Shown here: positions 466 through 41,500 of the stretch, piece by piece | Layout: each line of letters begins with the position of its first letter | Numbering within the stretch: position 1 is the first letter of the stretch | NCBI RefSeq assembly: GCF_018446385.1 | Contig: NC_055996.1 | Location: 127,520,532 to 127,584,531 of the forward strand | Direction: 5' to 3' | DNA length: 64,000 bases | DNA from: Zingiber officinale | Lineage: Eukaryota > Streptophyta > Magnoliopsida > Zingiberales > Zingiberaceae | Notes under the pieces: generated by a model | Told to the model about the DNA's origin: nothing | The model's input: the letters and a program-made list of their open reading frames with translations, nothing else | Database searches by the model: none | Program-made: the position numbers and the translations under genes

Positions 466-3055
466 TTCTAAGCTTAACAACAACCCTTTTTTCATCTTTT
501 TCTTTCTTTCTTTTCTCCATAATACCTACCAGCCGCCTTCTATAATGATTGCCACTGACGACATCAACCGCTGGCTCCAACTGCCTTTTATAATGATTGC
601 CGCCGATGACATCACCCACCAACTATCTCTCACAAATACTCCTGATTCTCCTGCCTCTCTTGTGGTTCTCAACGTCAATGCTCAAGCACAGTTGAAACTT
701 ACCACCTCCAATTATTTTGCCTAGCGTTTGCTGTTCACGTATTTTCTATTTGGATATGACTTACTGGATTTTGTTGATGGCTCATGTCCCTACCCCCTGC
801 ATAGATAACATCTATAGATGTCATGCTCCCTCAGGCGAATCTTGATCATTTTCTCTGGCTCTGCCAGGATCAACTTCTCCTCAACGCTATTATAGGTTCG
901 ATGTCTCCTACTCTTGTGCAATTTATTTCTTCATCAACTTTATCTAGAGACGCATGACAGACACTAGAGAGAACCTACGTCGCTCCCTCACGTGGTAGGA
1001 TTATGACTCATCGTCAAAATCTCGTCAGCCCTCAACAAGGTAACAGGTCTCTCACTGATTATATGCAGGACATCAAAAGAAATATTGACGCTCTTACGCT
1101 TATGAATGTCAAAGTTGACTTTGATGAACTCTCTATTCGTGTCCTGAATTGTCTTAGCCAAGATTACTGCAATATCTCACATGCTCTACAAGTTCGTGAC
1201 ACCCTATTACCTTTGATGAGCTATTCGAGCAGCTCCTCAGCTATGAAGCCTAGTTAAAAGTCTCAACATCATCTCCATCTTTGATGCCAATGACTGATCT
1301 TGTGGCTATAACAGGGAATTCTCGTAATCGGTATTCAAACTATCGTGGTGGTCGCCAGCAGGTTCTGCCTATATCCCATCAGCCATGCATGTCTACTCCT
1401 AGGCTATCTGCGCGTCCTCCTGTACATTCAACTGTGTCCAGTCCCAATCGTTATCTTGGGTGCTGTCAAATTTGTGGTGTCCAAGGTCACTCTGCTCGCC
1501 AGTGCGGTCATATGACTGCCTTGATGCTTGCTCTACTTCCGTCGGCTCCTTCGCGTGCTTTGCGTCCCATGTATAGTGCGCCGTTTGTGCACACTGCCGT
1601 TCATTATACACCTCGGCTGATTCTCGGGAATGGGTTGTTGACTCTGGCACCTCTCATCATGTCACCACTGATCTCGCTACTCTCTCATTGCATGAGCCTT
1701 ACTCTGAGAATGATAGCATCATCATTGGTGATGGTTCTAGACTACCTATTACACACACTGGTTCTTTCTCTTTCTCTACTCCATCTTTCCATTTAGTTTT
1801 CTCCAATATTTTATTTGTGCCATCTATGTCAAAATATTTGATTTCTATTGCAGCACTTTGTGCTACTAATCCTGTTATATTTCTTTTCTTTGATTCCTAT
1901 TTTCAGATGTTGGATCGTCATACGAGAGCGACACTGGTCAGTGAAGTCCATAAAAATGATGTCTATTACTGGCCAAAATTTATGTCTACGCTATCATCGC
2001 CTTCCGCCTTTTCTATGTCTGTCTCGTCATCTATTTCCTTATGGCATAGTCGTTTAGGTCATTCATCATTAGATGTTTTGCAACATTTTTTTTATCCTTA
2101 GGTCTTTCATTTCTTGCAAATACTTTGTCTAATTTTTCATGCACTTTGTGCAATATTAATAAGAGTCATAAATTGCCCTTTCATAAATCTAGTATTTCGT
2201 CTCGTGTTCCTTTGGATATTATCTTTTCTGATGTTTAGACATCTCCTATATCATCATTTGATGGACTCAAATATTATGTTATCTTTGTTGATCATTTTAT
2301 AAAGTATATATGACTTTATCCTTTACGCAATAAATTAGATGTATACTCTACCTTTATTGCATTCAAAACTCTTTTTGAAAATTGGTTCTCGATGACTATC
2401 AAAATACTATTCACTGATAATGGAGGTGAATTCTTAGTCCTTCGCTCCTTTCTTACTAATCATGGTATTAGTCATCTTATCACTCCTTCACACACTCCTG
2501 AACACAATAGATACTCTGAATGTCATTATTGCCATATAGTCGAAATTGGTCTCACCTTATTGCACAAAGCATCTATTCCACTTACTTTATGGTCTTATGC
2601 CTTTGTTGCGGCAGTCTATTTGATTAACCGCATGCGTAAGGTTGGTCTCTCCCATATGTCCTCTTTTGAAAATTTGTTCACCACCGTTCCTGATCTTTCT
2701 AAGCTTCGAGTTTTCGGGTGTCTATATTTTCCGTGGTTGCGCCCCTACTCTCACCACAAGCTTGATCCCAAGTCAATCTCTTGTTTCTTCCTTGACTATT
2801 CTCTCACCCAGAGTGTCTTCCTGTGCTATGATGTAGCTCTCAAAAGAGTCTTTGTATCTCGTCATCTTAAGTTTGTGGAGCATATTTTTCTATTTGTCAT
2901 CACCTTCTCCTTGGATTCCACAATAATAGACACAGACTCTGAGCTCTCTGCCGCATCAGTTCTCTCTGAGCTCTCTGCTGCACCGGTTCTCTCGTGGGTC
3001 CCTCCGGACCGATGCCGCAACCTACCACTAACCGTAGTCGTCCGCAAGTGACTTC

Positions 3056-4196
3056 TGTTGGTGCGGTTAGTACTAACGATCTAACTCAAGTTTTGATGAA
3101 TGACAAATTAGGTTAAGTTAGGTTTGTCGCTATCTAACACTCTGATCGAGTGTACAGGCTAAGTCTAGACAGGTCGATGGGCTAATTGGATGTCTGGCAC
3201 GAAGTCCAAGCAGGTCAACGGGCTGACCGGACGCTTGGCACGAAGTCCAAATGGGTCGACGGGCTGACCACACATTTGGCACGAAGTCCAAGCGGGTCGA
3301 CGGGCTGACCAGACATTTGGCACGAAGTCCAAGCGGGTCGACGGACTGACCAGACGCTTAGCACGAAGTCCAGCTAGGTTGACAGGCTGACCGGATAGCT
3401 GGCGAGAAGTCCAGACGGGTTGAAGGGTTGACCGGATGTCTGGCAGGTGAGTAAAGGAAACTCACTGGAAGGGAGTGACTGTGAGGACGCGTTTCCGGGA
3501 ATGGAACATTAGGCGTCGATCCGGCTTAGATCCATTTCGGATATCTAAGTCGAGATCGTGACTAGATTCTAGTCTCGAAAAGACGGAATCTAAGTCATAC
3601 TCTTGATATTGAATTTATAAACTGTGCTAACACTTTGTTTTGCAGGATACATATTATATATTTGCCTCGGACTAACCTTGTCTTGCAAGAGAAGGAATTT
3701 CTGGAGAAAGGTAGTCCGGGCGCCCGGAAGGCAATTTCTATCCTGATCGCGTCGTCGCCAAGTGGAACACGCTGGTTGGACCTGCTACGTCATACCAGGG
3801 TGCCCTGACCGTCCTATAGAAGGAGGGTTAGAGGTGGAGCCTAACAACAACTGACAAGAAAATCTTCTACTGCTTGCTCTGCTGCTCTGCGCTCCTGCGA
3901 CGCTAACGAAGCTCCGACAATGCACTTTTTCCTTTTCGGTTTATTCCTTTGTCGGTATTGCTTTTATTTTCATCAGCATTTTAACACTTAGTTTGTAATA
4001 ATTTTCGAACTGCTACTGATTGCCCACCGAAAGCACTCAACGAGTGCGGGCCTTGGAGTAGGAGTCGACATAGGCTCCGAACCAAGTAAAATTGGTCTGT
4101 GTTAGCATTGCTTACTTTTTCCGCTGCGCTTAACTCTTTTCGAAAGAATTTTCGTAATCGATATTCACCCCCCTATCGAAACATCACGATCCAACA
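3056..4196 (+). repeat. 5' LTR of the non-autonomous element (1141 bp)
   Basis: Begins TGTTGGTGCGG, ends GATCCAACA. It carries the hairpin array at 3163-3443. The 81-bp length difference from the right LTR is explained by one fewer 41-bp unit and a shorter GC-rich stretch near 3716-3740. Confidence 0.92.
3163..3443 (+). repeat. Tandem array of seven 41-bp hairpin units (left LTR)
   Basis: Seven units of about 41 bp. Each has a left arm such as CCAAATG, an inner GGTC...GACC pair, and a right arm such as CATTTGG. Arms seen in order: CTAGACA/TGTCTGG, CCAAGCA/CGCTTGG, CCAAATG/CATTTGG, CCAAGCG/CATTTGG, CCAAGCG/CGCTTAG, CCAGCTA/TAGCTGG, CCAGACG/TGTCTGG. Units 3 and 6 pair fully and the others have one or two imperfect positions. 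Unit 4 looks like a junction of two unit types. Confidence 0.9.
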
Positions 4197-4198
4197 AG

Positions 4199-4210
4199 TG
4201 GTATCAAAGC
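4199..4210 (+). other. Primer-binding site of the non-autonomous element
   Basis: TGGTATCAAAGC lies two bases after the 5' LTR and matches the initiator-Met type used by copia elements. Confidence 0.85.
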
Positions 4211-4616
4211 AAGTACCACTTTGATTTGGTGCAACCACCAATCAGGCAAAGGGGGTGTTTTTTTTAAAGAAAAATTAGATATTGTTTGTCTTTAAAATAA
4301 AACTTTACGTCTTTCGTTTTTTCCCTCCAAAACTACTTTTGAAAAATACATCGCCGTCTTTTCACCATTAATTAGTATCGACAAAATATTACATTTTCAA
4401 AAATTTGAGATAATATTTTTTATTAATATTTTATTATTTAAAAAAATAGTGAAAAATTATATATATATATTTTTTCTCCAACACTGCTAATCCAAGACCA
4501 AGTCTTGGGAATTTTTCTCTGTTTCCATGTGTGCAAGACCAATGCCTCTCTAAGAAGGATGGAACCCCAACGAACCACCACCGTACGATCAAGATTTCAA
4601 CTACTGGAGGCGAAGA

Positions 4617-5633
4617 GTGGAATGTTTCTTAGGAAGTCTAAACTTTGATTATTGGCTGATATTGAGAAAACCTTCTCAGAACTCAGAACTAAACACAAAT
4701 GTAAGTAAAATTATTTGTAATGGTTTACCTAACAATGTTTTATGCATACTAGAAAAGTACAAAGATGCACATGAGCTTTGGACCCAGTTGATCAAACTTC
4801 ACGAGGAGCCGATGGAGCTTGAGGATCAAGTAAAAATTGAATCTAAACTCGGGTTAGATCCAATCGAAAAGCCTACTGAATTAGAGGATGCGGTTAAGGT
4901 GAGTAATATTTACCAAAATATTCCTGCTAATAGTAGTTTAAAGAATATACATGTTAATTTGGATATTTCTGAAAATATCTGTGAAAATAGTGTAGCTGGC
5001 AATACTTACAAAAATACCCCTAGGATATTTTCTGATAAAATAAATCTAATTAATTTAGAAAATTTAGAAAATCTGAAAATAATTAATAACCCTAAAAATT
5101 CAAATATAAACCTAAACAGATCTGAAAGCTCAAATAATAATGATGATAATGTCAATATTAATCTAGACAATATCAATCTGGAAAATCCTATCCAAACCCA
5201 AGATAATTTAATTAACAAAAAATTAAATTTTAAAGATAAGACTTATTTAATAAATTCCACTAATTATATCAACTCAAAAGGTAAAGAAAATATAAAGATA
5301 AAATCAAACACTCTGATAAAATCAAAAATAAATTTAACAAACTTAAAATTAAATGTTAAAGATAACATATTAAACAAAGATAATCTAGAAAATTCAAAAT
5401 TAATAGTTAATAAAAGGTTAAAAGATAAATCTTTAAAGAAATATAATTTAAACAATTTGATTAATTCAAACTCAAAAATTAATAAAAACTCAATTATTAA
5501 CGATAATATATTAAATAAAGACAATTTAATTAACTTAATAAAATTAAAATTGAAAGAAAATTCAAATATTAAATACACTCTCTTAAAGAAGGATAATTTA
5601 ACCAATTTAATTAATTCAAAATTAAAAACTTAA
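4617..5633 (+). CDS. gag-like protein of the non-autonomous element
   Basis: An uninterrupted 338-residue frame. The first 75 or so residues resemble the copia gag (UBN2/DUF4219-type) domain: FLGSLNFDYWLIL near the start and a later ELWTQLIKLHEEP segment matching the usual W..L...HEG block. After about residue 95 it becomes an Asn/Lys/Leu/Ile-rich low-complexity tail (repeated NLIN, LKLK and KDNL motifs) that follows the AT-rich composition of the element and has no recognisable fold. No zinc knuckle is seen. The reading frame probably extends upstream of the first Met, since PF14223-like residues (YDQDFNYWRRRVE-like) are encoded at 4585-4620. It is a fossil gene and no function beyond gag-like can be claimed. 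Confidence 0.7.
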   Translation: MECFLGSLNFDYWLILRKPSQNSELNTNVSKIICNGLPNNVLCILEKYKDAHELWTQLIKLHEEPMELEDQVKIESKLGLDPIEKPTELEDAVKVSNIYQNIPANSSLKNIHVNLDISENICENSVAGNTYKNTPRIFSDKINLINLENLENLKIINNPKNSNINLNRSESSNNNDDNVNINLDNINLENPIQTQDNLINKKLNFKDKTYLINSTNYINSKGKENIKIKSNTLIKSKINLTNLKLNVKDNILNKDNLENSKLIVNKRLKDKSLKKYNLNNLINSNSKINKNSIINDNILNKDNLINLIKLKLKENSNIKYTLLKKDNLTNLINSKLKT

Positions 5634-6434
5634 ATTATAAATTAAACATTAAGACTAAATTGTATAAAAAATCATAAAAAAAAAATCAATAATTTAGAAG
5701 GAGGCTCCAGAATAGCTGGCACCTCCAAAAATAATTTATCCTACAGGATAACCAAAATCAATCTACCCGGCAGGGTAATTAGGACTAGAGTAAAAGGACA
5801 AGATTTAACTTGACCTATGGTACTGTGAAGTTTTGGATGATAGTACGTTAGGGAAGCTTAGTCTATGTATGTCTAGGAAGATATGACTTCGACCTGGTGC
5901 ATTTGGCTAAATGAAACTAACCGAAGCTACCCTTACGGATCATAACTAGTTAGACCAAGGTTTTATATTAAGTTCCGTGGATAGGACTATTCGGAAAACC
6001 TCGAAGGCTTGGTTACTCTAATGATGTCCAGGTGACTCACCATAGCCCAGAAGTTTATCCGAAAAATGCCTATTTGTTGAGCCCAAAGTTAAACCTGAAT
6101 TTAACATAAAGTTAAACCAACCCCTATAATTGAATCTAACTCATCTCACAAAATTATAGGATTCCCTGATTGATAATTTAGATCGAGTGAGATGAATAAG
6201 GAAATAAAATAATTTTTTTATAAAATTACATAAATTAAAAATTAAATTAAATTTTGATTTAATTTAAAATCAAAATTAAATTAAATTAAAATTTGAATTA
6301 ATTTTAAATTCAAATTAAATTAAAATTTTAATTGAATTAAATTACTGTTTAAATTAAACTAAATTTTGAAATAAATTAATTAAATTTTTAAATAATTTCG
6401 AACTAAATTAAATTAAATAAAAATAAAAAAATAA
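5634..6434. other. Non-coding interior of the non-autonomous element
   Basis: AT-rich sequence following the gag-like frame. A patch at 5700-6130 is less AT-rich and might be a remnant of former coding sequence, but no domain is recognisable in any frame. Confidence 0.6.
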
Positions 6435-8400
6435 CTTAAAATTATTTTTAAAATCCTTCAAACTTAAAATTATTTTAAAAATTTGTTAAAAACTATTTTA
6501 AAAATTCTTTAAAAACTACTTTAAAAACTATTTTAAAAATTCTTTAAAAAAATTATTTTAAAAATACTTTAAAAACTATTTTAAAATTTTCATTAAAAAC
6601 AATTTTAAAAATTCTTTAAAAACAATTTTAAAAATTCTTTAAAAAACTATTTTAAAAATTCTTTAAAATTATTTTTAAAATTCTTTAAAAACTATTTTAA
6701 AAATTCTTTAAAAAATTATTTTAAAAATTCTTTAAAAACTATTTTAAAAAAATTCTTTAAAAACTATTTTAAATTTTTTTAAAAAAAATTTATTTTAAAA
6801 ACTATTTAAAAAATTTCTTTAAAAACTATTTTAAAAAATTCTTCAAAAATTATTTTAAAAATTCTTTAAAAAACTATTTTAAAAATTCTTTAAAAAATTC
6901 TTTAAAAACTATTTTAAAAAATTACTTTAAAAATTATTTTAAAAATTCTTTAAAAACTATTTTAAAAAAATTACTTTAAAAATTATTTTAAAAATTTGTT
7001 AAAAACTATTTTAAAAATTATTTAAAAATAATTTTAAAAATTCTTTAAAAACTATTTTAAAAATTCTTTAAAAAACTATTTTAAAAATTCTTTAAAAACT
7101 ATTTTTAAAAATTACTTAAAAATTTATTTTAAAAATTCTTTAAAAACTATTTTAAAAAAATTACTTTAAAAATTTTTTAAAAAATTTGTTAAAAACTATT
7201 TTAAAAATTATTTTAAAACTATTTTAAAAATAATTTTAAAAATTCTTTTAAAACTATTTTAAAAAATTACTTTAAAAAGTATTTTAAAAATTCTTTAAAA
7301 AACTATTTTAAAATTTCTTTAAAAATTATTTTAAAAATTCTTTAAAAACTATTTTAAAAAATTACTTTGAAATTTATTTTAAAAACTATTTTAAAAATTC
7401 TTTAAAAGCTATTTTAAAAATTACTTTAAAAATTATTTTAAAATTTCTTTAAAAATTATTTTAAAAATTCTTTCAAAACTATTTTAAAAAATTACTTTAT
7501 AAATTATTTTAAAAATTCTTTAAAAACTATTTTAAAAATTCTTTAAAAAACTATTTTAAAAATTCTTTAAAAAACTATTTTAAAAATTCTTTAAAAAAAA
7601 TATTTTAAAAACTATTTTATAAATTTCTTTAAAAACTATTTTAAAAATTCTTTCAAAAAAATATTTTAAAAATACTTGAAAAACTATTATAAAAATTTCT
7701 TTAAAAACTATTTTAAAAATTCTTTAAAAAAACTATTTTAGAAATTCTTTTAAAATTCTTTTAAAAATTCTTTTAAAACTATTTTAAAAATTCTTTAAAA
7801 AACTATTTTAAAAATACTTTAAAAATATTTTCAAAATTACTTAAAAAAAACTATTTTAAAAATTCTTTAAAAACTATTTTAAAAATTCTTTAAAAATTCT
7901 TATAAAAATTGTTTAAAAACTATTTTAAAAATTCTTTAAAAATTATTTTCAAACTCTTTAAAAATTATTTTAAAAATTCTTTAATAACTATTTTAAAAAT
8001 TCTTTAAAATATTATTTTAAAAATTCATTTAAAAAACTATTTGAAAAATTCTTTAAAAACTATTTTCAAAATTACTTTAAAAAATTATTTTAAAAATTCT
8101 TTAAAAACTATTTTAAAAATTCTATAAAAAACTATTTTAAAAATTCTTTAAAAAACTATTTTGAAAATTCTTTAAAAAACTATTTTGAAAATTCTTTAAA
8201 AATTACATTAAAAATTCTTAAAATTTTTTTTTTAAAAATTATTTTAAAAATTCTTTAAAGACTATTTTAAAAATTCTTTAAATTATTTTTAAAATTCTTT
8301 AAAAACCTATTCTAAAAATTATTTTAAATTCTTTAAAAGTATTTTAAAAACATTTAAAAATTCATTTAAAAAAAATTATGTAAAAAAAAATCCTTTTAAA
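6435..8400. repeat. Degenerate AT-rich tandem array, about 22-24 bp period
   Basis: Roughly 2 kb made almost entirely of variants of AAAAACTATTTTAAAAATTCTTT, with the ACTATTTTAAAAA and TTCTTTAAAA halves alternating. Units vary by small insertions, deletions and substitutions. The array lies wholly inside the non-autonomous LTR element, where the pol genes would sit in a complete copia element. Confidence 0.9.
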
Positions 8401-10600
8401 AAAATTCTTTTAATCATTAAAAATCATTTTAAAGTCATTTTAAAATTAAGACACTTAAGCTAATTAAAACTTTAAAACTTAAACTAAAAACTTTAAAATT
8501 AAAGTTAAAACTTAATTTTAAATTAAATTAAAACCTAAGATTAAAGTTAAACTTAATTTAAATTTAAAACTTAAAATTTAAACTTAATTTAAAATTTATA
8601 ATTAAAATTAAAATTAAAATTAAATCATTTAAAATAAATTATATTTAAAATCCTTTTTACTTAAAAAAAATTATTATTTTTAACTTAAATCTTTTAACTT
8701 AAAAACTAAGTTTTTCTTAAAAATTAGTTTAAAAAGTCATTGTAATTAAAAAAAGCAAACTTAATGATAAAATAAAATAAAATAAAATTATATAATAATA
8801 AACCCTAAACCCTAAATTCAAATTACATTAAAATATTTGAACTAAATCTAAACTCTAATGACATTATTAACAAATAATTAAAATTTAATTAATTTAAGGT
8901 CATAAATTTAATAATGGAAGTACGGACTTCAAAAATTAACTGTGTTCTAAATTAGATGTGACCTTATATTAAACAGCTAATTAATGCTTAACCTTAATTT
9001 AACTCAATAAATCTTAATGTTATTGTTAATCAAAATATAATTAAATCATAATTTATCATTATTAACGATTGATTCAAACTGAACTTTAACTATGTTTAAT
9101 AACTTTAATTACTTTAAAATCGAATTAATGCTAACTTTAAACTAAGTTAATTCTACTTAAAAGGAAGTAAATGAATAGTTAAAACTATAACTAGTACTTT
9201 CATTAAATCAACTCAATCAATTAATATGAAATTTAGATTATTTTAAGAAGTATTAAATTATTGAATCAGGTAAAATTTAATCGATAAATTATTGATAATG
9301 ATAAATTGTTATTGAATTAATAACAAGTTATCTTATTTAATCTTAGACCAGAGTTTAAGGACTTGAATTTGAAATTAATTAATTTTAGAATAATTAATTA
9401 ATTTAACTTAAATAAACAATCATACCATTAATATCATAAGTATATAGAGATACTTATGTAAATAAAAAGGTGTTAAGGCTTTGAACATTAAGATACTCAA
9501 ACCTTAGTGTTAACTTAATAGGGAGAAATAAATTAAGAAGAGTAATAAAGTCAAGGGGAGTATCAAATTCAGGGGAGGTTTATTTTTTTAATCTCCTTAA
9601 GTATTATTTTTTCTTTAAAATCTCTTTAGAAAATTCTACCTCAATTTAATTTAAAAAAAAATACTTTGAAAATCTTATATTAAATATTCTTAGCAAATAT
9701 TTTCAAAAGCTTTATTTTAAATATCAGGTTTAGGGGGATGATTAAATCAACCTATTTTCATACTTAGTACCAAAATTATTTTCTCCGCTTTAAAAGTAAT
9801 GACTCATCTTAAAAACTTTTTAAATCTGATCCTTGGAAATCTAATAAAATCTATTTTTTTTTAAAAAAATCTAGCTTTTATAAAACTAAGCTTTTACAAT
9901 TGGATTTTATAAAATAAGTTTTTAACAATTGAATCTTTTGCAAACTTAGTTTTAATTAGCTTTGAAAAGTAGATTTTTCATACCTAGTTTTGAAATTTTA
10001 GTTTTGAAAACTCATGTTTGTAAAGTGTTTCAAAGTTAAAATTTATTTTGAAAATTTAAAAAAAAAATTATCTTGAAATTTGGAACTTAAACACTTATAT
10101 TTGAAAATTAGACTATCTAAACTTAGCTTTCCTAAACTTATACTCGAAAATTAACTTTTAAATTTTTTTAAAAAAAATTCTCTTTGAGTTTGCAAATTCA
10201 TTTAATTTTACAAAAATTATCTTTAAAAATTACTCAAAATGTACTAAGTTATGTTGCTAAACTAGCTATTTTCAAAACTTAGTTATTTTACAAAAGATAA
10301 GAAATAAAAGCTAAATTACTATGTGTTAAAATTTAAACTTCCCCGAGTCAACTTGACATCATTTCTTACAACTTATAAGTTTTACTCTGTCTGAATTCTA
10401 TTGGTTACTTACTTATGTCCTTATTTGATGAATGCCAAAGGGGGAGGGATAAGTGGTTAAGTTAGAGCAACTAAATGCAAAATTAGTTAGAGCAACTAAA
10501 TGCAAAATTGAGAAACTAACTTAAAACCTTAAAAACCTCAAAAATCATGCTTGATTTTTTCATATCTTTTCACCAACTTAATCGGGTTGTCATTCCATTA
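8401..10600. other. AT-rich non-coding interior (3' part)
   Basis: AT-rich sequence without reading frames or known domains. It contains two tandem CCCTAAA telomere-like heptamers near 8803-8817 and an extra purine tract AAAGGGGGAGGGA at 10437-10449. Some stretches (9440-9760, 10320-10460) have more balanced composition and may be decayed pol or leader sequence. Confidence 0.6.
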
Positions 10601-10612
10601 AAAAGGGGGAGA
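10601..10612 (+). other. Polypurine tract of the non-autonomous element
   Basis: AAAAGGGGGAGA sits immediately before the 3' LTR start (TGTTGG at 10614) and matches the plus-strand primer of LTR elements. Confidence 0.88.
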
Positions 10613-10719
10613 TTGTTGGTGCGGTTAGCACTAACGATCTAACTCAGGTTTTGATGAATGACAATCAGGTTAAGTTAGGTTTGTCATTATCTAACACTCT
10701 GATCGAGTGTACAGGCTAA

Positions 10720-11041
10720 GTCCAGACAGGTCGACGGGCTGACCGGATGTTTGGCACGAAGTCCAAGCGAGTCGACGGGCTGACCGGACGCTTGGCACGA
10801 AGTCCAAATGGGTCGACGGACTGATCGGACATTTGGCACGAAGTCCAAGCGGGTCGACGGGCTGACCTGACGCTTGGCACGAAGTCCAAATGGGTCGACG
10901 GGCTGACCGGACATTTGGCACGAAGTCCAAGCGGGTCAACGGGCTGACCAGACGCTTGGCACGAAGTCCAGTTAGGTCGACGGGCTAACCGGATAGCTTG
11001 CGAGAAGTCCAGACGGGTCGAAGGGCTGACCGGATGTCTGG
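10720..11041 (+). repeat. Tandem array of eight 41-bp hairpin units (right LTR)
   Basis: Arms in order: CCAGACA/TGTTTGG, CCAAGCG/CGCTTGG, CCAAATG/CATTTGG, CCAAGCG/CGCTTGG, CCAAATG/CATTTGG, CCAAGCG/CGCTTGG, CCAGTTA/TAGCTTG, CCAGACG/TGTCTGG. Five of the eight pair perfectly over seven bases although the arm sequence alternates, two have a single G-T wobble, and unit 7 has one mismatch plus one wobble. The arms enclose a near-constant GGTCGACGGGCTGACC core whose ends also pair (GGTC/GACC). Confidence 0.92.
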
Positions 11042-11451
11042 CAGGTGAGTAAAGGTAACTCACTGGAAGGGAGTGACTGTGAGGACGCGTTCCCGGGAAG
11101 GGAACATTAGGCGTCGATCCGGCTTAGATCTATTTCGGATATCTAAGTCGAGATCGTGACTAGATTTCGGTCTCGAAAAGACGAAATCTAAGTCATACTC
11201 TTGATATTAAATTTATAAACTGTGCTAACACTTTGTTTTGCAGGATATATATTATATATTTGCATCGGACTAATCTTGTCTTGCAAGAGAAGGAATTTCT
11301 GGAGAAAGGTGGTCCGGGTGCCCGGAGGGGATTCGGGCGCTCGGAAGGTAATTTCTATCCTGATCGCGTCGTCGCCACGTGGAACACACTGGTTGGACCT
11401 GCTACGTCACACCAGGGTGCCCGGAAGGGATCCGGGGCGCCCCGACCATCC

Positions 11452-11458
11452 TATAAAA
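11452..11458 (+). promoter_or_regulatory. TATA box in the 3' LTR
   Basis: TATAAAA within CCTATAAAAGGAGGG, about 380 bp before the LTR end. The left LTR has a changed version (TATAGAA). Confidence 0.6.
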
Positions 11459-13583
11459 GGAGGGTTAGAGGTGGAGCCTAACAACAACTGACAAGAAGAT
11501 CTTCTACTGCTTGCTCTACTGCTCTGCGCTCCTGCGACGCTAACGAAGCTCCGACAACGCACTTTTACCTTTTCGGTTTATTCCTTTGTCGGTATTGCTT
11601 TTATTTTCATCAGCATTTCAACACTTAGTTTGTAATAATTTTTGAACTGCTAGTGATTGCCCACCGAAAGCACTCAACGAGTGCGGGCCTTGGAGTAGAA
11701 GTCGACACAAGCTTCGAACCAAGTAAAATTGGTCTGTGTTAGCATTGCTTACTTTTTCCGGTGCGCTTAACTCTTTTCGAAAGAATTTTGGTAATCGATA
11801 TTCACCCCCCTCTATCGAAACATCACTATCCAACAACTTCTTCACCGCTGTCATCATTGCCACCATCATCTTCGCCATCATCACCTCTTGTGTGGGGTCA
11901 TCCACGCTGTCTAGTGGCAATCGACCCTCTAGCCCACCAACTCTTTCTCTCTCTCGCTTCTCTAAACTAACATCCCATGCAAACTCGCTCCAAAAATGTC
12001 ATCTATAAACCCAATCCAAAGTATCTTCTTCATACTAGTCTTCCACAACCTTGTGAACCCTCCTCTGCCACGCAGGCGCTCAAAGATCCGAATTGGGTAC
12101 AGGCCATGCATGAAGAGTATGATGCTCTTCTCTGTAATCAGACTTGGATTCTTGTTCCACCTTCGCCAGACCAAAATCTTGTAGGTAATAAGTGAGTGTT
12201 TTGCATTAAGCGTAATTTTGATGACTCAATTGATCAGTATAAGGCTCGTCTTGTTGCCAAGGATTTTCATCAGCACCCTAATGTTGACTTTCATGATACA
12301 TTCAGCTCTGCTATTAATCCAATAACAATGCGCATTGTTCTTAGTTTGGCTGTGAATCGGAGGTGGTGTCTTCGCCAACTTAATGTAAGCAATGAGTTTC
12401 TTAATGGTCATCTTGTAGAGGAGATTTATATGGTGCAACCTTCGGGTATGCGTAGTGCTGAGTTTCCGGATCATGTGTGTCATTTGCATAAGGCGCTTTA
12501 TGGCCTGAAGCAGGCTTCGCGCACTTGGTATTTGGAGTTTCGCGCTTTCTTGTTCTCTCTTGGCTTTATCGCATCCCGAGCTAATACCTCCTTATTTGTT
12601 TATTCTCGGGATGATAGTGTTATCTATTTCCTTATATATATTGATGATCTAATCATTACAGAGAGTGATGTTTCTTCTGTTGACGTTATAGTATGTAAAC
12701 TTCATGTAAAATTTACGATTAAGGATCTTGGGGCTCTTTCCCTCTTCTGTGGTATTGAAGTTCGCCCAACCTCCAATGGTCTTCTCTTGTCTCAGCAAAA
12801 GTATGTCACTGATCTTCTCTCCAAACACAACATGCTTGATTCCAAGCCGGTCTCCACTCCTATTGTTGTTGGCCCTCATCTTACTTTGCATGATGGGTCT
12901 TCATCTTTTGATACAACTAAGTTCCGATAAGTGGTTGGAGGCTTACAACATCTCCGTATGACTCATCCTGATATTTCCTTTGTGGCCAACAAGCTTTCAC
13001 AGTTTATGCATGCTCCTTCAGAGACGCATTGGGGTGTTGTGAAGTGTCTACTTCGGTATCTCAATGGTACTAAGGATCTTGGCATTCGTCTTCTTGCGGA
13101 TGCACCTTTTACTCTTCATGGTTTCTCCGATGCAGACTGGGCAGGAGATCCAGATGATCGATGTTCTACGGGTGCATTTATTATTTTTCTAGGTGCTAAT
13201 CCGATTTCTTGGAAATCTACCAAACAACGCAGGGTTGCACGCTCTTCGATTGAGAATATCGTGTCATTGCCTCTGCAGCAACTAAGATCTAATGGATTAA
13301 GTCACTTTTGACAGATCTACTTCTTTCGGTTACCACGCCTGCCGTGCTTTTTACTGATAATTTGGATGTCACGTATCTTTCAGCTAATCCTATTTTTCAC
13401 TCTCGGATGAAGCATCTAACTATTGACTATCACTTTGTTCGTGATCTGGTGCAGACCTCCGAACTACGAGTTACTCATATTTCTGCTGAGGATCAGTTGA
13501 GTGATGCGCTTACAAAGTCGCTTTCTTGACCACGATTGTTTGCTATTTGCAGCAAGATTGATGTCATTTCTGGGGCACCATCT

Positions 13584-13593: not shown

Positions 13594-13818
13594 TATTAGG
13601 AAATAATTATTATAAGTAAATAGTTATTTATTTCCTAATTATTAGGGAATAATTATTATTAGAAAATAGTTATTTGTTTCCTAGTTACTAGAGAATAATT
13701 ATTATTAGGAAATACTTATTGTTTTCCTAATTTATGCATTTTCCTATTTTCACTTGTAATGATATTTATATATACCATATGCTATCATTAATAATATGTG
13801 TGAATTCTATCGTCAATA
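13594..13818 (+). repeat. 3' LTR of the Ale-like copia element
   Basis: 225 bp, same length and ends as 230-454, followed directly by the GATAA target duplication (13819-13823). Confidence 0.92.
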
Positions 13819-38500: not shown

Positions 38501-41500
38501 CTTGGCCCGTGGTGTGCTTGGGTTACACCGCGGGTTGAGAATTTTTTTTTCTAAAATTTTAAACTAAAGTGAAAAATTCAATGGGTTTGTTCGTTTGACT
38601 TGCCTAGTCTACAATCCAAATTTAAAATTTTCAATCTTTTCTATATATATTTTTGTTTTTTTTACTTTTTGACGGACTCATGGACTGACTAGTCTAACCC
38701 ACAACCTGCCTTGGGTTAGGTTGGGTTGGAGATTTCCTAACCCGCTGAGATGGCGGGCCTCCCCGTCCCGCTCCACCTCGCCCCGCCCCGCCCCGCCCCG
38801 CCCCGCCGACGAGTTTTTAGCAGGTCTGCTCGCCTCGCCACGGGTTGGCCCGCTTGACAACACTAATAAGATATAGGGTGTAAACCTACGAGATGATGTG
38901 TAAGTTCGTACGTTCCTTGTGATGAACTCCTTGTCTATAGTTTGTTTTCAATGTGGATATTCAAGAGCTTTATGATGTGTCTTAAGAATCTTTAGTTTTT
39001 CATAGACGACAACAACATCATACACTAGTAAAAAGTTAAGCTCAAGTTTTTGAAGGTAAAAAAATTTGCAATGAGATGTGTAGTCGTAATTCATTTACCT
39101 TTCTCGAGAGCAATAGGTAAGTGAATGTCTAATGGACAAGGATTCAATCTCTGAATTTGTTGATGATGTTAATGGTGGAGGTTGCGAATGTGAAGATATC
39201 TTAATACATTGGTGATATGATTATAGTGGAGAACTGATGGATGGTTTTAGTTGAAAGATAATGCAACTGGTGGCGGAAGTGGTACAACTTCAAAAGGTAT
39301 TGAGAACAATCCAAGAAATATGGTGTGGTTTTAAAAACATGACATTAGTAGAGGCATAAGGGCAACGAACTATATATCACAGCACATGTAGACCTTTTGG
39401 TGCAAGAGTAACCAAGAAAGATATAACGAGAAGCTATTAGGTAGAATTTGTCATAGTACTAAAACACAAATAAAGTATACCTAACAAAAAAGTTCATGAT
39501 AAAGAAAAGCAACGTGATTAGGTAAAGATAAGCATTGTCAATGCATAAAATTTCAACAAAAGTGGGAAAAATATGTCTGTTTTTTTTAATACATCAAGAA
39601 CCTCAAGACAAGCTTTAAACTAGTAAATCCATGTCCATACATGTGCAATCAGTAACAAAAAATACAAAATGATGCAATCCATTGTTATCATGTACAAGAT
39701 TTAGAATCCATATGTCAAAGTGAAGTATGATAAAAAAGAGATACGTTTATAAGTACTAGATGAAAATGATGCACAATAATGTTTACTAAACTAGAATACC
39801 TCACATTGGAGCTTAGTGAGTGAGGGCGGAATACATGGTTCACGATTTTATTCCATGTTGGTCAACACGAGCAAAACATTTCATTTTATCCGCGAACACA
39901 TGAAATAGCTTGATACCATGAACTTCGAACTAACCTTCTTGTATGGGCAAAAAGTGAAGTTGCACTCTATGAGTCATTTGTGCGCCCTTAGAGACCTTGC
40001 CTTAACATTCGGAACCCTTTGCAAGTCTTCCACAAGAAAAACAAAACAAAGTTCAAACTCTACAACTCTTCCACACAACGATGCAACATGAGTGATATGA
40101 CAAGAGAGACACAATGACAAAACCCTTAGTGTGACTTTTGTGAATCTTCTGCTACCTCATCTTCCTTCGCCTCATTGTCCCAAAATGAAGCACGTTATTC
40201 CTCCTCTCCTTCTACCTTTTCCTTCTATTATGATGTTTGGCACACTTCCGACATCAACACTTAACACTTGATATGTCTTGTGATGGTAGGGGATTGAAAC
40301 CATAGCGCGGTTTTAGATTTAAACCTTGGTGGGATATTACCGGAGTCTCTAATTTTCAAAAGATGATTAGGATGACAATAGACCCAATGTAAAGTTGCCA
40401 CCATGTGACCTTGAGGTCACGAGTTTGAGTCGCAGAAATAGCCTCTATAAAATGTAAGGTAAGGTTGCGTACAGGAGACCCAATGTAGTTCGACCCTTCC
40501 CCAAACCCTGCATTGGCGGGAGCTTCATGCACTGGTCTACCCTTTATAACTAGGGTGACAATGTCACTAGCATGGGGTTATCCTTGTGATGAGAAAGAAC
40601 GCTACTGACTAGTGGAGAATTAAATTCATCCAAGTAGAATACTCCATCCTGGATTCATGACCTACATAGACACAATTGAGTAGGATAAAAAGTTACACAT
40701 AATTTTAAATTTTGTCAAAGCTTAGTGATGAGGTAGGTAAATAACCTTGGCTTTTGATCGGTATGTGAGAATGATTAAGAATAGAAATATGTGGTACAGT
40801 AGATACAATGAGGGTAGCAAATAATTCATGTTTACTTGTCATATATATAAAGATGCATCCCATGAAATCTTAAAATTTTCATGCAAGTAGAATCAAAAGT
40901 GGAAGTAGTTATAGTTTGAGGAACTAGAAGTGTTTTAGAGTAAAGTCTTTAATTGTTAGTTGATAATCACTTTTGTGGATATTTCTGAGTAAACTTGAAA
41001 AATGAAGAGGTCACGGTGGCATATGTAGTAGTTTGCATGGTGGGTGGTTGTCATAGCTTATTCTAACAACATTTTGATAGATGGTTGATGCAACCACAGT
41101 GGACACATACATGTATGGAGGATCCCACGCCCTCATCCTTATTCACGGTCGTGTCTAGTAGTATAAGCCATAGTTTCGAATGAAAGAGGTAGTGCCACAA
41201 TAAAACTCAATGGTACAATTGCATTGATAAGTAACTTTAAGTGACCTGTGTTATTAGAATCATCAGATCACACATGAGTTTCGTCAATTGAAATTCTTCA
41301 TGTTGGTGATTCAAACTTTTGGGATTTGTGGAAATATGATTAAATATGATCAGTTTGTCCTACTTGCCTCAAAGAACAACCAAGTATCCTTGTATTGAGT
41401 TGCCATCTTAAATTAAAAATATATCTAATGTATGTGGGTGATAATTTACTCACATGAGTACATTGGCCGAAGAACATCCTAATTTCTTTGGAAGTAGAGA

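Follow-up and report, generated by a model that had tools for sequence, protein, structure and literature searches.

The 41-bp hairpin arrays studied here come from a window of 64,000 nucleotides of Zingiber officinale (ginger). They are probably palindrome-rich cis-regions of U3 in the LTRs of a Ty1/copia element of Sirevirus type that is very abundant in ginger. A palindrome array is itself a known Sirevirus feature; what is new is a 41-bp unit with several arm classes, together with their frequent alternation. Each unit is built of a 7-nt arm, GGTC, an 8-nt loop, GACC, a 3-nt bulge, a second 7-nt arm and an 8-nt spacer. Around the nearly constant core of GGTC, 8-nt loop and GACC, the inner four arm pairs (4-7) would have diverged into at least six classes with complementarity kept.

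The array, its coordinates and its 41-bp period were confirmed by TRF and by unit-by-unit reading. The 3' LTR carries eight units on the + strand (10722-11041) in the class order D A B A B A C E, and the 5' LTR carries seven (3165-3443, +) in the order D A B, an A|B chimera, A C E, with a G-T pair in the E unit of both. TRF returned period 41 at 10718-11034 and 3195-3433, and for 10718-11034 an 82-bp period scored higher. The chimera, unit 4 of the 5' LTR (3288-3320, +), joins the class A left arm CCAAGCG to the class B right arm CATTTGG, leaving one mismatch and one G-T between the arms. An earlier note on this DNA had described the arms as reverse-complementary in most units, which stands if G-T pairs are allowed (11 of the 15 units in both LTRs), while strictly perfect arms occur in only 7 of 15. 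Perfect Watson-Crick arms are seen in five of the eight units of the 3' LTR (seven with G-T) and in two of the seven in the 5' LTR (four with G-T); those that fail to pair throughout even so are number 7 of the 3' LTR (CCAGTTA/TAGCTTG) and numbers 2, 4 and 5 of the 5' LTR. The arm pair CCAGACG/TGTCTGG, given in that note as an example, exists but is the rarer form, with 3 of 406 family units against 21 of 406 for CCAGACG/CGTCTGG. Its main point, that arm differences between units compensate each other, holds in both LTRs and across the family.

The host element and related Sirevirus palindromes

The retroelement carrying the arrays spans 3056-11835 (+) and is bordered by a 5-bp TSD, ACTTC, at 3051-3055 and 11836-11840. 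Its 5' LTR (3056-4196, +, TG...CA) and 3' LTR (10614-11835, +) differ by a K2P of 0.059, or about 2.3 My at a substitution rate of 1.3e-8 per site and year. The element is nested in another copia element, whose flanking ORFs contain an SH3-like retroviral domain (2392-3048) and RVT_2 (12196-12927), and two copies of a 46-bp tandem repeat (230-365 and 13594-13732) that flank the nested elements possibly belong to the LTRs of the outer copia element. A gag-like ORF at 4617-5633 had no Pfam match at E up to 0.01, and no ORF of 80 aa or more was found on the + strand of 5634-10613; both make our assignment less secure. The second half of the gag-like ORF is a repetitive N/K-rich low-complexity stretch, and an AT-rich tandem repeat of about 1.9 kb (6466-8372; periods of 12, 23 and 47 bp) fills much of the internal region.

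The assignment to a Sirevirus-type Ty1/copia element follows from non-coding hallmarks, namely the polypurine tract, the junction, the poly-C run, the inverted repeat and the position of the TATA-like box, which we compared with those set out in PMC2829016. The primer binding site TATCAAAGC (4202-4210, +) comes after CA/AGTGG and differs by one mismatch from the Sirevirus TATCAGAGC, in agreement with the Sirevirus-type junction of CA/A(T or G)TGG followed by TATCAGAGC. The polypurine tract AGGGGGAG (10604-10611, +) starts 10 bp before the 3' LTR, as is typical of Sireviruses, and is followed by AT/TG, the LTR TG lying at 10614. Two copies of the tract precede the 3' LTR (10439 and 10604), a weak match to the Sirevirus habit of multiple copies, of which that paper gives an average of four. 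An inverted repeat borders the tract (left arm 10572-10603, +; right arm 10649-10680), its right arm about 35 bp inside the 3' LTR, and a poly-C run (C6) of the Sirevirus integrase-signal type sits near the LTR end (11805-11810, +; also 4168); both agree with Sireviruses. Downstream of the array lies the TATA-like box CTATAAAAGG (11451-11460, +), of which TATAAAAG is exact in 33 of 64 LTR stretches, with conservation no higher than that of its surroundings. SIRE elements are reported as prevalent in Amomum, a related genus, in PMC11066291.

The earlier statement that no named LTR structure of this kind is known was mistaken, as Sirevirus LTRs have been described with repeated motifs of palindromic form ahead of their TATA box (Bousios et al. 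2010, PMC2829016). Like these RM boxes, the ginger units are palindromes repeated many times in the LTR's upstream half, ahead of the TATA box; the 3' LTR, with eight, has the minimum of eight used to define RM boxes, and the 5' LTR has seven. Several RM motifs given there contain GGTC/GACC, namely CGGTCTGACCG (Osr10), CGGTCAGACCG (Osr8) and CGGTCGACCG (Vitis). However, the RM consensus in that text is 10-20 bp long with one per element, whereas in ginger units of strictly 41 bp follow one another in tandem, each with an inner stem, a 3-nt bulge and an outer stem, and the outer stems within one LTR fall into several classes. Nor is the CGG-CCG signature of published RM motifs the symmetric core here, that place being taken by GGTC/GACC, next to which the pair is G-C or A-T according to class; the same text gives a Tnd-1 motif that likewise lacks the signature. 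RM clusters are also expected to define a CpG island; here the CpG observed/expected ratio is 1.16 in the array and 1.12 in the 3' LTR as a whole, so that the array does not stand out, although its G+C is 0.61 against 0.50. The missing CGG-CCG core and unremarkable CpG ratio speak against the reading that we favour, and the array is therefore not a plain RM member.

In maize, palindromes in the LTRs of Sireviruses have been described as hot spots of small RNAs (Bousios et al. 2016, as presented in PMC10760457 and PMC5311732). Those palindromes share with the ginger array their clustering in an LTR cis-region, a predicted secondary structure and a variable, rapidly evolving sequence, but the maize motif is CACCGGACNNNGTCCGGTG, which differs from the ginger array. 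Sirevirus LTR palindromes are thought to be both the control region of the element and the handle by which the host silences it. Our literature search, over part of the matching papers, found no report on the ginger 41-bp array.

Closer to the published Sirevirus motifs than the 41-bp array is a second cluster of short palindromes and near-palindromes directly upstream of the TATA-like box (11314-11444, +), with CCGGGTGCCCGG at 11314, CAGGGTGCCCGG at 11413 and CGGGGCGCCCCG at 11433 and 5' LTR counterparts at 3716 and 3796 (3716-3807). These are short and GC-rich, of the CCGGGCGCCCGG type, and differ from the array in lacking a 41-bp tandem arrangement. Between the array and this cluster, CAG/GTGAGT (11042-11050, GTGAGT at 11045) and, about 190 bp on, TTTTGCAG/G (11236-11244) resemble splice sites, and a spliced leader was considered and set aside; the two sites are not specially conserved, 34% and 21% of same-length windows in the 64 LTR stretches being at least as conserved.

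Matched arm classes and their decay

The exact 19-bp core with set end letters occurs at 39,303 places in the Zingiber officinale genome that we searched (3.09 Gb, 211 contigs), and two samples of units were drawn. The first, chosen by similarity to the window, draws on 64 LTR sources, made up of both LTRs of the window and 62 further loci, and holds 406 units after six doubly fetched loci were dropped before counting; one locus (L059) contains two arrays. Up to five substitutions were allowed in the 19-bp core and units with core indels were missed, and the units are not independent because several sources are both LTRs of one element or close neighbours. The second sample, free of selection by similarity to the window, has 177 units from 38 consecutive loci on contig C1, detected by an exact core with nearly free arms.

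Complementarity between the arms is far above chance. Perfect arms were found in 223 of the 406 units, whereas 1000 within-array shuffles gave 61 on average and never more than 79; in the second sample 116 of the 177 units have them. All five of the commonest arm pairs among the 406 units are perfect: CCAAGCG/CGCTTGG (68), CCAGCTA/TAGCTGG (65), CCAAATG/CATTTGG (37), CCAGACA/TGTCTGG (31) and CCAGACG/CGTCTGG (21). Covariation was scored as an APC-corrected G statistic over 465 column pairs, and ranks 1-4 went to arm pairs 5, 4, 7 and 6 in the first sample and to pairs 5, 7, 4 and 6 in the second. Pairs 1, 2 and 3 ranked 166, 94 and 247 in the first and 109, 53 and 10 in the second, so that the covariation expected at all seven outer positions was borne out for pairs 4-7 and not confirmed for pairs 1-3.

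Among perfect-arm units of one source, differences between classes amount to 0.70 per site in pairs 4-7 and 0 in the outer arm pairs, values that partly follow from selecting perfect-arm units. Between-class against within-class differences per site are 0.05 against 0.06 in the inner stem, 0.10 against 0.06 in the loop, 0.15 against 0.15 in the bulge and 0.29 against 0.14 in the spacer. The core GGTC...GACC had also been said to pair; this inner stem is indeed nearly constant, but gives no evidence for pairing because its between-class differences are no greater than those within classes. Something has changed both arms of a fixed frame together; the cause may have been templated repair, the use of different dimer sites, or selection that favoured pairing.

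Is the pairing kept now? After 27 class-discordant units of the 406 had been dropped, the 379 class-assigned units showed 96 changes in the left arm only, 93 in the right arm only and 5 in both, and three pairs restored within classes against 5.15 expected. One-sided changes gave G-T in 75 cases, A-C in 85 and others in 29; with G-T no more favoured than A-C, selection on an RNA strand was rejected. Rare left-arm letters outside the five main classes were matched 195, 222, 195 and 205 times genome-wide at positions 4, 7, 6 and 5, some places being counted at two positions, and among the 400 matches listed, which include at least six places twice, two were strictly compensated as judged by eye. 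In one of these rare-letter searches most listed matches were CCAGTTA/TAGCTGG, a G-T wobble that was not scored as compensated. Decay in the sampled copies consists mostly of C-to-T and G-to-A changes. Recent mutations show no sign of a pairing constraint: the sampled copies drift, and the visible pattern is the inheritance of old matched classes. The proposal that pairing is maintained today is thus not supported, given arms that mutate independently within classes, the lack of a G-T preference and two compensated among 400 listed matches. The objection foreseen in the earlier note, that the pairs were all inherited by copying of ancestral sequence, agrees with nearly every unit sampled, though not with the origin of the classes.

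A sixth compensated class, CTAGCTA/TAGCTAG, occupies array positions 3 and 4 in all five fetched loci of a sister subfamily, which were chosen for having two neighbouring units of this kind listed, and is by these fixed positions an inherited class. Its count alone proves little, because C-to-T decay on both strands favours the same outcome: double changes at pair 2 occur at 221 places, and 58 of the 100 matches listed are CTAGCTA/TAGCTAG by eye. Double changes at pair 3 were found at three places, with the position paired in all three; one of these places was fetched, and its unit stands alone. The six inherited arm classes are all perfectly complementary, and linking them takes eight or more paired changes. 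A core variant, GGTCGAAGGGCTGACCGGA, is present at 4,441 places, mostly with CCAGACG/CGTCTGG-like arms among 100 matches listed.

A right arm with a bulged A gave 550 matches to a pattern requiring core and tail, of which 84 of the 100 listed are exactly CGCTTAGG by eye; it is present in 5 of the 38 consecutive loci and still leaves seven pairs possible. A compensating 8-bp left arm opposite CGCTTAGG was sought and rejected, the adjoining left arm being CCAAGCG in three of four matches listed and CTAAGCG in the other, and the bulged A is mostly uncompensated. The five loci (L075, L090, L091, L096 and L112) have an inherited array type, with a class A unit with the bulged-A right arm followed by 42-bp spacing.

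Recombination yields mismatched chimeras, one of them in the window. If only those are counted in which the classes of the two arms are at least two pairs apart, chimeras make up 16 of the 406 and 3 of the 177 units. Five loci have a C|A unit at the same index, which we considered as a possible amplified chimera and dropped, as in no case did the four closest relatives of a locus, judged by the neighbouring LTR sequence, include another of the five (for L017 that sequence was not comparable); from this comparison, recurrence appears likelier than inheritance for the shared unit.

Explanations for the matched arms

On the reading that we favour, the classes would have arisen in active master elements in which dyad symmetry mattered or templated repair restored it, and the matched classes would then have been spread by retrotransposition. 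Recombination or slippage would add or remove one or two units of an array. For the LTR promoter the array may work in cis much like an enhancer, and transcripts that read through it or derive from the 3' U3 might fold and give rise to small RNAs, as has been suggested for Sireviruses in maize. It is also possible, though on the less likely side, that selection was never involved and pairing is a by-product of hairpin (quasi-palindrome) template switching, in which a mutation in one arm is copied into the other. This is a known mutational process (PMC7202029) and would suit the concentration of class differences at paired sites. Against it, pair restoration is no higher than chance in both the within-class test and the rare-letter matches listed, and the right arm CGCTTAGG has spread uncorrected; these data come mostly from genomic copies and so leave room for repair during reverse transcription. 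Rather unlikely, in our estimation, is that the dyad is bound as DNA by transcription factors acting as dimers or pairs, with different factors for the classes, and that pairing in RNA or single strands never mattered. The location upstream of a TATA-like box would agree with this, as would the lack of a G-T over A-C bias, which implies no RNA-strand asymmetry, and PMC2829016 discusses its motifs as possible factor sites. However, a single dimer would hardly account for six arms around a nearly unchanged core, and with 19 bp between the half-sites several factors would presumably be required.

Quite unlikely, to our mind, is a neutral, satellite-like repeat, in which palindromes that arose by chance, few in number, became fixed as master elements multiplied and have no bearing on function. 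Neutral-looking recent decay, the chimeras in both samples and the widely varying array length are all in its favour; what it explains poorly are six inherited classes that are all perfect in spite of at least eight paired changes, the fact that the sole clearly inherited uncompensated form seen, the bulged A, keeps all seven pairs possible, and the recurrence of dyad motifs at the same LTR place in other Sireviruses (PMC2829016). Packaging or dimerisation of genomic RNA, a role suggested in the earlier note, we regard as very improbable. Packaging signals usually lie in the 5' leader. The array, being upstream of the TATA-like box, is in U3 and hence near the 3' end of the genomic RNA, not in the 5' leader, and the lack of a G-T preference is a further point against. 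Isolated window units do fold more stably than shuffles (10 of 15 with z of -2.1 or lower; 2 of 15 near zero), as this role would have it, but folds of the whole array, with RNA z of -2.67 (+ strand) and -3.43 (- strand) and DNA z of -2.92, disfavour separate hairpins, the best RNA fold being other than a row of eight. Mean in-register pairing probability of the inner arms in the whole-array RNA fold is only 0.25 (+) and 0.40 (-) across 367 units from 58 sources with units 41 bp apart, which also weighs against the cis-region reading, and Rfam gave no match at gathering score in 3050-11845. With 39,303 core places in several inherited classes, the family offers a natural means of testing whether the element keeps pairing as such or the sequence of the arms, and whether small RNAs follow pairing, with chimeric and bulged units as built-in controls.

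Array length and unit order

Classes are inherited by array position, and the class strings seen include DABABACE, DABACE, DACACACE, DACACE and DACE. Together with the 82-bp TRF period these strings suggest two-unit blocks. Within units, the unit's own inner arms are fully paired, G-T allowed, in 79% of the 406. Across junctions, the right arm of one unit is fully paired with the left arm of the next in 5.8% of 342 cases against 14.3% in shuffled order, with a minimum of 8.5% in 1000 order shuffles. Differing neighbour arms might thus act as an orthogonality code that makes each unit pair with itself and not across the 8-nt spacer; if so, compensation and alternation alike would result from selection that keeps hairpins or cruciforms separate. 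We consider this improbable, since copying of two-unit blocks accounts for the alternation without selection, and arms two units apart are fully paired in 23.7% of 278 cases. Its odds are lowered further by the sister subfamily, in which the same class stands side by side in all five fetched loci.

Steps of 82 bp as the main mode of length change were dropped as an idea, 31 of the 64 sources having five or seven units. Arrays hold 2 to 8 units: seven in 22 sources, a size favoured by the similarity query, which itself has seven units, six in 21, five in nine, eight in seven and four in two, with one source each having 12 (two arrays of six), three and two units.
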